Shown piece after piece: positions 5,154 to 30,224 of a stretch of DNA of 34,193 bases (position 1 is its first letter; the number at the start of each line of letters is the position of its first letter). A model generated the notes under the pieces. The model was given only the letters and a program-made list of their open reading frames with translations. It made no database searches and had not been told where the DNA came from. The translations under genes were made by a program, and so were the position numbers. Origin of the DNA: Lachnospiraceae bacterium (GTDB lineage: Bacteria; Bacillota; Clostridia; Lachnospirales; Lachnospiraceae); assembly GCA_029099805.1 (NCBI GenBank), contig JAQXOR010000016.1:1-34193 (forward strand), written 5' to 3'.

Positions 5154-5804
5154 TTAAAGCCGGGAAGCCGGGCGGAGCAGAGAAATCTCATTATAAGGGG
5201 TTTCTCCGGGAACGATATAAATGAGGGACGGGTTTGCAAGCAGAAAGTCCTTGTAATAGTCGATGTTTGGTGTAGCATCCGGGAAAAGCTTTAAGAGAGG
5301 CTTCATCTGTGTTGAGAAGGCAATCAGGCGGTCCGTCCGGAGATAATAGAGGCACCGCGAGGCTGTGTGGTCGGAAAATAAAGTCAAGGAACGGCTCTGT
5401 TCTTCCCAGACAGCAAATGAGAATAAGCCCCGAAATAATGATACGCATTCTGCTCCGTAGGCAAGATAGGAAAGATACATCAGTGTGCCGTCCGGAGCAT
5501 CGGTAAGCTGTTCCCTCGTGTAATTTTGTGAAAGGAGGGATTCGATTACTTCCGGCCGGTTATCCAGAATGCAGTCGGCAGTAAACAGTATGCCACGTTC
5601 TTCGTTGTAAATGGGAAGGCATTCACGGACGGATTCTTCTGTGAGATATTGAATTCCGCAGCCAAAACAGGCATTCTCTGTACGGACACTTTCATAACGG
5701 TCGATTTTGCATGTACTTCGGTAAGAGTCTTCGAACAGTCGGCAGCAATTCTCCGGCAAGCCTTTGTTTTGGTCCGGTGCGACAATTCCCCAAATTGCAG
5801 ACAT
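5154..5804 (-). CDS. Asparagine-synthetase/lasso-cyclase-like N-terminal (Ntn/glutaminase-like) domain only; no ATP-dependent synthetase domain
   Basis: MSAIWGIVAPDQ... FTADCILDNRPEVIESLLSQ... FSFAVWEEQSRSLTLFSDHTASRCLYYLR.... resembles the N-terminal half of AsnB-like proteins; lacks the Cys after Met; ends after 216 aa. SD AAGGGAG before ATG 5804. Confidence 0.7.
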   Translation of the reverse strand: MSAIWGIVAPDQNKGLPENCCRLFEDSYRSTCKIDRYESVRTENACFGCGIQYLTEESVRECLPIYNEERGILFTADCILDNRPEVIESLLSQNYTREQLTDAPDGTLMYLSYLAYGAECVSLFRGLFSFAVWEEQSRSLTLFSDHTASRCLYYLRTDRLIAFSTQMKPLLKLFPDATPNIDYYKDFLLANPSLIYIVPGETPYNEISLLRPASRL

Positions 5805-5856
5805 AGTATCTCCCTTCAATGGTAAACGACAATGTTTGAGCCTAATATACGGCAGT

Positions 5857-6747
5857 CTATCGGATATAGGTAAGGAGTTGCTTCAGGATGATTTCACGGG
5901 TATCATATCCGACCGGTCGGATGATATGATAAACAGGAATCCTGGACGCGAGTGTCAGTCCGCGGACTCCGTTTTCCGGCGTGTATAATGCTTCTCCAAG
6001 CAGCGGCCGCAGAAACAGTGAATTCATACAGGCCTGAAATTTGGCTATCCCTGTGACTTCCGCAGAGAATACACGGTCCGTATCGGAGAGTGAGAGCATA
6101 ATCATTGCCTGTACCGGAACCGGACCGGTAGGAAAGTATCCGCGGTAGGGTACAAGAAATTTGTCCTTTGCCTCATCGATATAAATAAGCTCCTCCTCGG
6201 AGATGCCGAGGCGCCGTACGGCATCTCGGCATAGCTTCTGATAGGGAAATGCTGCGTAGGCGGATACCGATGCTTCATCGGAACAATCAAGCATGGTAAT
6301 ATCATCTGCCATCAGGCAATAGCCTTTTTTCAGCAGTGCAGAGGTAAGCGTTGACTTTCCGCTGCCACTGTCACCGCAAAGAAGTATCGCGCCTTTCGGT
6401 CCGGAAACACAGGAGCCGTGAATGGCAAGCTTATTCTGCTGATGGAGCAGCATGGAAATTCCCCAGCCGAGCAGATAGGAGCTTAAGAGTGCATCGGGAG
6501 TATCCTTTTTTCTTTCGTAAAAAATCCGGGTGCCGCCTTTTACCAGAAGATAACAGTGCGAGTTGGATAAATAGCTCACATCTGCGGCAATATGGGAATA
6601 GCAGACGGAGTCTGCTTTCAGAGTATCCGGAAAAGGTGCTTCGGAGACGGTAATCTGCGGGAACTCCTCTCCGGCAGAGACTGCCGGTAATTGCCGGAGC
6701 GCGATGTCAGATGCAAGTTGCATGCCGTAAATTCGATAATAATACAT
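5857..6747 (-). CDS. HPr kinase/phosphorylase C-terminal-domain-like P-loop protein (RiPP-associated type)
   Basis: P-loop GDSGSGKSTLTSALL, LMADDITML, AIHGSCVSGPKGAILLCG; N-terminal MYYYRIYGMQLASDIALRQLP resembles HprK-like proteins of lasso peptide clusters. Confidence 0.75.
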   Translation of the reverse strand: MYYYRIYGMQLASDIALRQLPAVSAGEEFPQITVSEAPFPDTLKADSVCYSHIAADVSYLSNSHCYLLVKGGTRIFYERKKDTPDALLSSYLLGWGISMLLHQQNKLAIHGSCVSGPKGAILLCGDSGSGKSTLTSALLKKGYCLMADDITMLDCSDEASVSAYAAFPYQKLCRDAVRRLGISEEELIYIDEAKDKFLVPYRGYFPTGPVPVQAMIMLSLSDTDRVFSAEVTGIAKFQACMNSLFLRPLLGEALYTPENGVRGLTLASRIPVYHIIRPVGYDTREIILKQLLTYIR

Positions 6748-8318: not shown

Positions 8319-10067
8319 ATGGAGAAAAACGAGAGAAGGACTAAATTGAAAGCGCGGCGCATAGGAATCCGCGGCAAGATTATGCTGATGCTGATTCTGG
8401 TTATGATGGTCAGCTTGACAATAAGCGGGCTGATGCAATCCTTTACAACAAAATCAAGCATTATCAAGATGTCCGGCGAAAGTGCGAGGGTTGCTGCCAA
8501 TATGGTTGCGCTGCAGCTGAACGGAACAGATTTCAGCGGAATCACATCTGAAAGTGATGAGCTGTATGTTTCAACGCTAAAGCTGCTTCGTGATAATATT
8601 GCCGTATCGAATTTTGAGTATCTTTATGTACTGACGACGGATGGCAAAACAGTTTCTTATTTGATTGATTCTGATGAGTCAGAGGAACAATTCGGAATAG
8701 GGGATGAGTTCTCGGAGTCTTACGAGTATCTGGCTCCTGTGTTTCGGGGAGAGGCTGTTGTAGATGCGGAAATCAAGCCGGAGGTGAACAATGGGGAAGA
8801 GGATAACCTGGTTACGGCATATGTCCCGATTTATGACAATAACGGAAGCGTCACCGCAATCTTGGGCTGTGACTATAATCCGGATTCTCTTTCCGGAATG
8901 TTTTCCAATAATTCTTTCCGGAATACGCTTTGCTCTGCGGTTGTTTTGTGGCTGGGTGTGCTTTTTGCCTTTTTCCTGACCGGTGCCATTGTAAAGGGAA
9001 TTAAGACAGTAAATGAGAAATTGTATGAGATGGTGAATCATAACGGAGACCTGACACAGAAGCTGAGTATAAAGACAGGAGATGAGGTTGAGGTTACCGG
9101 CAGGCTGTTCAATGAGTTCCTGGAATATGTTCGTGAAATTATGATAAATATTGATTCCGGGACTAAAACCTTGGCAGAGGAAAGTATGCATTCCATTGAG
9201 GCTGCTACTGAGACAAGAGCGAATGTGTTCAATGTTTCTGCAACTGTGGAGGAGATGTCCGCAACGACGCAGGAAACCTCGGCTTCCATGATGCAGGTGA
9301 ACAACAGTGTAGATGAAATTGCGCACAATATTACTGCCTTTGAGCAGATGTCACAGCAAATCGGAACACAGACAGATGACATTTACCACCGTGCGGAAAA
9401 GATCTATCAGACAGCATTGACGGAGCAGAAAAAGGCAAAAGCCGATGTGGCGGAGATTTCTTCAAAGGTAGAACAGGGAATTGAGCGTTCCGGAGCAGTG
9501 CGCGAAATTGAACTTCTGACACAGACGATTATGGAAATCTCTTCCCAGACCAACCTGTTGTCTCTGAATGCAAGTATTGAAGCGGCAAGAGCCGGTGATG
9601 CCGGAAGAGGCTTTGCAGTGGTTGCTGCTGAAATCGGTGAGCTGGCACAGAAGTCGTCAGAGGCAGCGGCAAAGATTCAGAAGGTATCTGCCGAGGTAAT
9701 CAGTGCAGTAGACGGGCTGGCAGACAATGCCGGAGAAATGATTACATTTATTGAGAATATTGTCGTGGAAGGATATAATACGTTGCTCGGCGTAAGTGAT
9801 GATTACAAGAACAACTCCAACGATATCCATCAGAATATGGATCAGTTCATTGCACGGACAAAGGAACTGACCGCACTCATCGGAGAAATCAATCAAATGA
9901 TTGCTTCCATCAATATTGCGGTAGAGGAGAATGCAAAGGGTATTTCTGAAGTCGCAGGAGAAATGAATAAGATTACCGGAAATGTTGACCTCACAGCCGC
10001 CGGCGCAGAAAAAACCGGACAGGTGGCGGAGGATTTGACGGTTGAGGTAGCTAAGTTTACGTTATAA
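8319..10067 (+). CDS. Methyl-accepting chemotaxis protein
   Basis: N-terminal TM, sensor region, second TM ([20 protein letters not shown]), HAMP-like segment, and the tip [39 protein letters not shown]. Confidence 0.93.
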
Positions 10068-24820: not shown

Positions 24821-25800
24821 GTTTTCGTGATTATCTTGCCGCAAAGGCTGTTTCCCTGTGCTTAACCGGGATTGGCGGACTTTATTTGATTCTCGTTTCT
24901 TATTTGTGCGGCGTACCTGCTTCCCTGCTTGCCGTACTACTGTTTAGCGCGGCAGCGGTAGTATTTCTTGGATTTATCCTCGGCTGGCGGCGCATGAACC
25001 GACGACTGAAAATGCTGCAAAACAGGCTCAGCGAGCTGTCGGAGAAATATCTGATCGGGGAAACGATTGAGCGGCCGAAAGACGCCCTGGAGCTTCCCTA
25101 TTATCTGCTGATGAAGGAAATCTCACGCTCGGCTATCGGGGCAGTAGAGCAGGCCAGAGCGGAAAAACAGGAATACTGCGATTATGTAGATAGCTGGGTT
25201 CACGAGCTTAAAACGCCGCTTACTGCCTGCTCGCTGATTCTCTCCAATGGCGGAGACCCGGCGAAGCTTCGGCGGGAGCTGCGTCGGGCAGATAATCTGA
25301 CGGAGACAATCCTGACTCATGCAAAGCTAACAACAATGGAAAAGGATACACGAATCAGCCATGCCAATCTGCATAACCTATGCGACCAGGCGATTCGTGA
25401 GGAAATGGAGATATTAATCTCTGCCGATATCAACATTACTGTAGACGGAGAATGCTCTGTATATACCGATTCAAAGCTCTTTGTCTTCATCCTCAAGCAG
25501 CTTCTTATCAACTGCGCCAAATACTGCAGGGGCTGTCAGATCAGCATTACGCTTGCAAACGGTATTCTGACCTTTTCGGACAATGGTCCGGGGATTCCCG
25601 CTCATGAACTGAATCGGGTAACGGAACGCGGGTTTACCGGTGCCATAGGACGAAGCAGCGGTCAAAGTACCGGTATGGGGTTGTACATCGTCAGTGAGCT
25701 TTGCAAAAAGCTGAATATCGGTCTGGAGATTTTCTCCGAAGAGCATTGTTTTACCCGATTTGTGTTTCACTTTCCTTCCCAAACCTTACAAAATTGTTAG
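24817..25800 (+). CDS. Bce-like sensor histidine kinase, translationally coupled (ATGA overlap)
   Basis: Two N-terminal TMs, DYVDSWVHELKTPLTACSLIL H-box, FSDNGPGIPAHELNRVTERGFTGAIGRSSGQSTGMGLYIV; ATG 24817 overlaps the regulator TGA 24818-24820. Confidence 0.92.
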   Translation: MSFRDYLAAKAVSLCLTGIGGLYLILVSYLCGVPASLLAVLLFSAAAVVFLGFILGWRRMNRRLKMLQNRLSELSEKYLIGETIERPKDALELPYYLLMKEISRSAIGAVEQARAEKQEYCDYVDSWVHELKTPLTACSLILSNGGDPAKLRRELRRADNLTETILTHAKLTTMEKDTRISHANLHNLCDQAIREEMEILISADINITVDGECSVYTDSKLFVFILKQLLINCAKYCRGCQISITLANGILTFSDNGPGIPAHELNRVTERGFTGAIGRSSGQSTGMGLYIVSELCKKLNIGLEIFSEEHCFTRFVFHFPSQTLQNC

Positions 25801-29804: not shown

Positions 29805-29844
29805 AGAAAAGAGCCCTTGATGTTTCTAACGCCGAGGGCTTTTA
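29805..29844. terminator. Bidirectional intrinsic terminator
   Basis: AAAAGAGCCCTT-loop-CGAGGGCTTTT between rsmH and the convergent small peptide gene. Confidence 0.75.
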
Positions 29845-29880: not shown

Positions 29881-30066
29881 TTATGAGTTCTGAGAAGAGT
29901 CATAGGTGCACCAACCCTTATGTGCGCTTTCATTAGGGTTTCCGGTCCATTTCTTTCCACAAACAGGGCATACTCCCCCCGGTTCAGTATCTACGAGACC
30001 GAAATTCTTCGCGGTAAGCTTAATCGCTAATTCTTCTACTGTTGGTTTGTTCCAATTCTTCTTCAT
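29881..30066 (-). CDS. 61-aa peptide with RiPP-like leader and four Cys; candidate RiPP precursor
   Basis: MKKNWNKPTVEELAIKLTAKNFGLVDTEPGGVCPVCGKKWTGNPNESAHKGWCTYDSSQNS; SD GGAAAGGAG 9 nt before ATG; own consensus promoter. Confidence 0.8.
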   Translation of the reverse strand: MKKNWNKPTVEELAIKLTAKNFGLVDTEPGGVCPVCGKKWTGNPNESAHKGWCTYDSSQNS

Positions 30067-30144
30067 AATGATATACTCCTTTCCTTACAGAACCATGATT
30101 CCCATACAAAGATAGGAATGCTGTCTATCTCAATAATTTATCCT

Positions 30145-30184
30145 AATCCGTTTTTGTTATTATTATACCTTAGGAAAACGGATT
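30145..30184. repeat. 10-bp inverted repeat centred on the -10 element
   Basis: AATCCGTTTT (30145-30154) / AAAACGGATT (30175-30184); centre lies inside TATAAT. Confidence 0.75.
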
Positions 30185-30189
30185 GTCAA
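30162..30189 (-). promoter_or_regulatory. Consensus sigma-A promoter of small peptide gene
   Basis: Minus strand TTGACA (30189-30184)-16 bp-TATAAT (30167-30162). Confidence 0.8.
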
Positions 30190-30195
30190 TAAAAA

Positions 30196-30224
30196 CTAAC
30201 AATTTTGTTAGGACTTTTGTCCTA
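30196..30224. repeat. Two overlapping palindromes upstream of the -35
   Basis: CTAACAA-TT-TTGTTAG (30196-30211) and TAGGAC-TTTT-GTCCTA (30209-30224) share TAG. Confidence 0.75.

Follow-up and report, generated by a model that had tools for sequence, protein, structure and literature searches.

The stretch of Lachnospiraceae DNA analyzed here (the window; 34,193 nucleotides) carries on its minus strand a 61-codon gene whose translation, from 30066 to 29881, reads MKKNWNKPTVEELAIKLTAKNFGLVDTEPGGVCPVCGKKWTGNPNESAHKGWCTYDSSQNS*. This candidate precursor of a ribosomally synthesized and post-translationally modified peptide (RiPP), hereafter the 61-mer, its flanking signals and a decayed lasso locus elsewhere in the window comprise the following features:

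29881..30066, minus strand: 61-amino-acid open reading frame (ORF) with stop codon, candidate RiPP precursor (translation)
30010..30066, minus strand: leader MKKNWNKPTVEELAIKLTA, residues 1-19 (leader HMM, E 5e-7; NF033524, E 4.8e-4)
29983..30006, minus strand: candidate ring segment NFGLVDTE, residues 21-28 (predicted by alignment on the leader Thr)
29908..29970, minus strand: zinc-finger-like tail CPVCGKKWTGNPNESAHKGWC, residues 33-53, CX2CX12HX3C (sequence; shuffles)
29884..29886, minus strand: C-terminal Ser61, expected kinase target (alignment; analogy with PadeK)
30076..30081, minus strand: Shine-Dalgarno sequence AAGGAG, ending 9 nt before the ATG (sequence)
30162..30189, minus strand: promoter TTGACA-16 bp-TATAAT, 12/12 matches to consensus
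30196..30211, no strand: operator palindrome CTAACAAAATTGTTAG, common to lasso precursor genes, 6 bp upstream of the -35
30209..30224, no strand: second palindrome TAGGACAAAAGTCCTA, overlapping the first
29811..29841: terminator hairpin shared with the convergent rsmH (fold and sequence)
5857..6747, minus strand: HprK-type kinase with intact frame, belonging to a decayed lasso locus
5154..5819, minus strand: truncated lasso cyclase, amidotransferase domain only

A previous interpretation made from the letters of the window (the sequence-only reading) had placed a probably real gene here, with a strong Shine-Dalgarno sequence, a consensus promoter and a terminator, and each of these elements is indeed found. 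The automatic scan returned no minus-strand terminator; the hairpin came from folding, can form on both strands and is followed by a T-rich run on the minus strand. An inverted repeat, AATCCGTTTT...AAAACGGATT, at window positions 30145-30184, spans the -10 of the gene and is a possible further operator.

The N-terminus carries the WxxPxV motif of paeninodin-type binding to the RiPP recognition element (RRE) as W5-N-K-P8-T-V10, in agreement with the pattern WxxPx[L/V/I/..] and with the role of WxxP in RRE binding (PMC13381572), and Thr18 lies near the presumed cleavage site. The NCBIfam model of the paeninodin family, NF033524, matches residues 2-20 with 19.8 bits, under its 27-bit cut-off; the precursors on contig C152 of the same genome, which lie inside a full lasso cluster, score at most 16.6 bits with this model. 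A separate leader model was based on 17 other Lachnospiraceae lasso-precursor leaders, sourced mostly from NF033524 matches in 397 genomes of the family and their neighbourhoods; the 61-mer itself was excluded, although L019 and L025, which make up two of the 17 rows, had originally come to light with it as query. This model scores the 61-mer at 25.2 bits, with an E-value of 5e-7 among the 997 ORFs of the window and of 5.3 for the next-best ORF, and when the 61-mer was shuffled 20,000 times no shuffle approached its score. A group of short peptides with similar leaders from a second family of the order (L100-L105) was set aside. The resemblance to a paeninodin-like leader is thus beyond chance. 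Searched family-wide, the model hits five places in the 61-mer's own genome, that of the 61-mer with an E-value of 5.5e-5.

Regulatory sequence also links the gene to lasso precursors. Throughout Lachnospiraceae, the palindrome CTAACAANNTTGTTAG closely precedes the -35 element in lasso-precursor genes; 656 kb of loci contain 26 sites that deviate from it at no more than two positions, and 22 of these lie upstream of a leader-bearing ORF at a distance of up to 350 bp. The only perfect copy in the 2.68-Mb genome is at the promoter of the 61-mer gene, and the four sites with at most one mismatch are this promoter, two promoters of C152 precursors and one end of a coding sequence. An operator-like site at 25785, at a coding-sequence end, was taken as chance. 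The pattern itself is not over-represented (8 sites versus 19 for the reversed control), and it is the location of the operator that counts. The operator lies 6 bp from the -35 at the 61-mer gene versus 5 bp in most others, because of which a position weight matrix that includes the -35 ranks this promoter lower, with 72 background positions scoring equally high; the operator argument hence rests on the palindrome. These sequence comparisons give good support for placing the 61-mer gene in a paeninodin-type regulon. A conserved response-regulator/histidine-kinase pair, encoded for instance at L080:7904-9506, is found in about 12 lasso loci, among them contig C87 of the same genome, and would be the natural candidate regulator of the common operator.

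The genome holds the machinery that such a precursor would need, on other contigs. C152 encodes one PqqD/RRE protein (B1), two Transglut_core3 B2 peptidases, two full lasso cyclases, HprK-type kinases, ABC exporters and three precursors, and C87 encodes a third cyclase and a fourth precursor; no B1, B2 or intact cyclase gene lies beside the 61-mer gene. The sequence-only reading had named uniform conservation of the CxxC...C region, together with a plain zinc-ribbon profile hit and a genome without RRE and B2 proteins, as a sign of an ordinary zinc-binding protein; this combination was not observed. The presence of one RRE and two B2 proteins, together with cyclases and kinases, makes the RiPP reading stronger than the window alone showed, as do the operator, the C-terminal Ser and the acidic residue at ring position 8. 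Its proposal of a candidate RiPP precursor is upheld by the leader model built without the 61-mer, the genome-wide RRE and B2 proteins, the common operator and the C-terminal Ser.

The RiPP-like enzymes noted previously about 23 kb away, at 5154-6747, are indeed lasso-related, the kinase being of HprK type and the cyclase retaining its amidotransferase half, but they are not the missing enzymes of the 61-mer. The synthetase half of the cyclase and an adjacent precursor are missing, and the remaining genes show synteny and 57-65% identity (57-62% for the kinase) with HprK-cyclase-precursor clusters from three members of the genus, whose precursors have the core DLGxCxNP[YF]W. The kinase and cyclase fragment were consequently dropped as the 61-mer's own enzymes, this synteny marking them as a decayed NPYW-type cluster. 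At L041, L143, L152 and L082, a cyclase and a kinase accompany precursors that share the conserved core DLGxCxNP[YF]WxGNG.

Decay in the neighbourhood raises the alternative that the 61-mer is a precursor left behind by a decaying lasso locus, perhaps expressed, without a working partner. Comparison of the rsmH-gdsL spacer, which lies between rsmH and a GDSL gene, is in line with this. In the sister species G150 (L174) and G154 (L176) the spacer has the same operator and promoter, arranged alike and on the same strand, with a terminator at its end, and is strongly conserved between the two, yet contains no precursor ORF, whereas in G151 and G153 it is short and lacks such a gene. The promoter site may therefore be older than the 61-mer, or the ORF may have been lost in G150 and G154; the short transcript expected at L174 and L176 could be a small RNA or an eroded precursor. 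A search of these spacers against Rfam gave nothing credible. Occurrence of the 61-mer in a single species likewise fits a relic: no real homologue of its whole length was found in GTDB genomes, viral contigs, phages or plasmids, and PHROGs gave nothing. A match at L018 was rejected as out of frame. However, the ORF, Shine-Dalgarno sequence, consensus promoter and operator of the 61-mer are intact, and the decayed locus 23 kb away fits NPYW-type precursors and not the 61-mer. We regard a relic as unlikely.

The sequence-only reading had further described three Cys and a His in a zinc-ribbon-like arrangement; their spacing, CX2CX12HX3C, is that of a C2HC zinc finger, with an aromatic residue at the zinc-finger Phe position. 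Spacing plus aromatic recurred in 12 of 200,000 shuffles of the tail, for a pattern picked after the sequence was seen. Measured against the C2H2 pattern CX2-4CX3FX5LX2HX3-5H/C, spacing and aromatic fit and Glu replaces Leu; a PDB comparison gave a weak summed match to the C2H2 fingers 2i13 and 1mey. A single-sequence AlphaFold model of the 61-mer reached a pLDDT of 54, and the Foldseek matches of this poor model all had E >2. An ordinary small zinc-finger protein whose leader likeness arose by chance would account for the spacing and the weak finger matches, but against it stand the leader E-value of 5e-7, the perfect lasso-regulon operator and the C-terminal Ser, all of which are independent of the tail. 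Pfam, moreover, contains no zinc-finger match to the 61-mer, and we consider this reading very improbable. Relative to classical C2H2/C2HC fingers, the 61-mer shares the ligand spacing and the Phe-position aromatic and differs in the Glu at the core Leu, the missing Pfam match and the RiPP leader ahead of the tail. The 61-mer may act as a metal-binding or a disulfide peptide.

Between leader and tail, the sequence is compatible with a lasso-type ring. When 59 leader-bearing peptides are aligned on the leader Thr, acidic residues mostly fall at +10 or +11, which, for a core beginning at +3, corresponds to ring positions 8 and 9, respectively. The 61-mer has Asn at +3 and Glu28 at +10, so that E28 occupies ring position 8 when residues are counted as in its cyclase-linked relatives (D26 and E28 at positions 7 and 9 if the core starts at Lys20), an acidic residue at core positions 7-9 not being rare by chance. 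The earlier judgement that the C-terminal part is unusual for a lasso core consequently holds for the tail but not for the N-terminal part of the core. Core residue 1 would by alignment be Asn21 or Lys20 and not Gly or another small residue; the cyclase-linked C87 precursor likewise has no Gly at the core start. Leader-bearing precursors at L080, L046, L042, L151 and L148 share a conserved DGGxxGDGxxSGH-like core with a mostly non-Gly ring start. At the other end, the 61-mer terminates in Ser, as expected of an HprK-type kinase substrate, PadeK phosphorylating the C-terminal Ser of its own precursor (PMC9266682). Ser is the last residue in 25 of the 59 leader-bearing peptides but does not rank among the eight most frequent final residues in a set of 444 long ORFs; as number eight accounts for 4.7%, Ser stays below 4.7%.

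In the larger Lachnospiraceae regions analyzed, a cyclase lies no more than about 7 kb from each of the other leader-bearing genes, the exceptions being those at L081 and at L148, where the contig ends. Both clear stand-alone cases, the 61-mer and G096:C29 (L081, the L076 peptide), are Cys-rich. This setting bears on a further alternative, in which the 61-mer is leader-tagged but linear, so that RRE recruitment, phosphorylation and cleavage would take place without cyclisation, and functions as a C2HC zinc or disulfide peptide. Consistent with it are the lack of an intact adjacent cyclase, the Asn or Lys at core position 1, the L081 peptide as another Cys-rich leader-bearing product without lasso enzymes, and the existence of phosphorylated linear RiPPs with a related leader, the linear polyphosphorylated peptides (LPPs), which have an RRE-recruited leader and are kinase-linked (PMC13381572). 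LPPs resemble the 61-mer in their lasso-like leader, RRE recruitment and kinase link; their leaders, however, read YxxPxVLxHQ, and the 61-mer has WxxP with Trp at the Tyr position and no VLxHQ. E28 at ring position 8, the three cyclases available in trans and the Cys-rich L128, which adjoins a cyclase, argue against a linear product. We give the linear reading somewhat less than an even chance, and it overlaps our preferred explanation, in which ring closure is only a possibility.

That explanation, which we hold to be probable, is that the 61-mer belongs to the paeninodin-type lasso regulon of this genome as a stand-alone precursor processed in trans. Sequence directly shows the common leader, operator and promoter, the C-terminal Ser and the RRE, B2, cyclase and kinase genes on other contigs. 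The two-component system that accompanies lasso loci, in this genome on C87, would act on the operator, the single B1/RRE of C152 would grip the WxxP of the leader, an HprK-type kinase would phosphorylate Ser61 and a B2 peptidase would cut shortly after Thr18. One of the three cyclases may then join residue 20 or 21 to Glu28, and the remaining CX2CX12HX3C tail might bind a metal ion, most likely zinc, or form disulfides outside the cell. A single enzyme set would in this way serve precursors scattered over the chromosome. Against this explanation count the lack of an intact adjacent modifying set and of Gly1, the sub-cut-off NF033524 score, the lack of a whole-length homologue, the two query-found rows of the leader model and the 6-bp operator spacing. 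The 61-mer cannot be counted as an established member of the lasso class, as there is no Gly1, no adjacent cyclase and no known product.

Paeninodin-type, kinase-associated lasso precursors share with the 61-mer the WxxP leader, the Thr near the leader end, the acidic ring position 8 in the register of the relatives and the C-terminal Ser; unlike them, the 61-mer lacks neighbouring B and C genes as well as Gly1 and has a long CX2CX12HX3C tail. In prochlorosin-type lanthipeptides, one enzyme set acts in trans on precursors with a constant leader and hypervariable cores scattered in the genome. The in-trans layout suggested for the 61-mer is alike, whereas enzymes and chemistry differ. RiPP mining tools seek precursors beside enzymes, and here a lone gene was placed in a lasso regulon by its leader, operator and last residue. 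With no intact cyclase nearby, such a lone precursor would imply that current counts of lasso-type products are too low, and the common operator offers a simple route to more such genes.

Cys/His-rich tails recur in the relatives L119, L120, L044, L032, L128 and L076, all beside a cyclase except L076. Judged from sequence, these tails suggest metal binding, and scattered stand-alone genes may give rise to some lasso-type peptides whose tails would bind metal. Among the papers searched, none combined lasso peptides with zinc fingers. It is tempting, if rather doubtful, to extend this to a lasso-type RiPP class with Cys/His metal-binding tails, some of its members being lone genes matured in trans, under one two-component regulon, in which a threaded or branched ring would be joined to a zinc-finger-like tail. 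At L081, in another genus, no operator was seen; the leader-bearing peptide gene, at about 9033-9224, lies there between genes for a pectate lyase and a pectinesterase.
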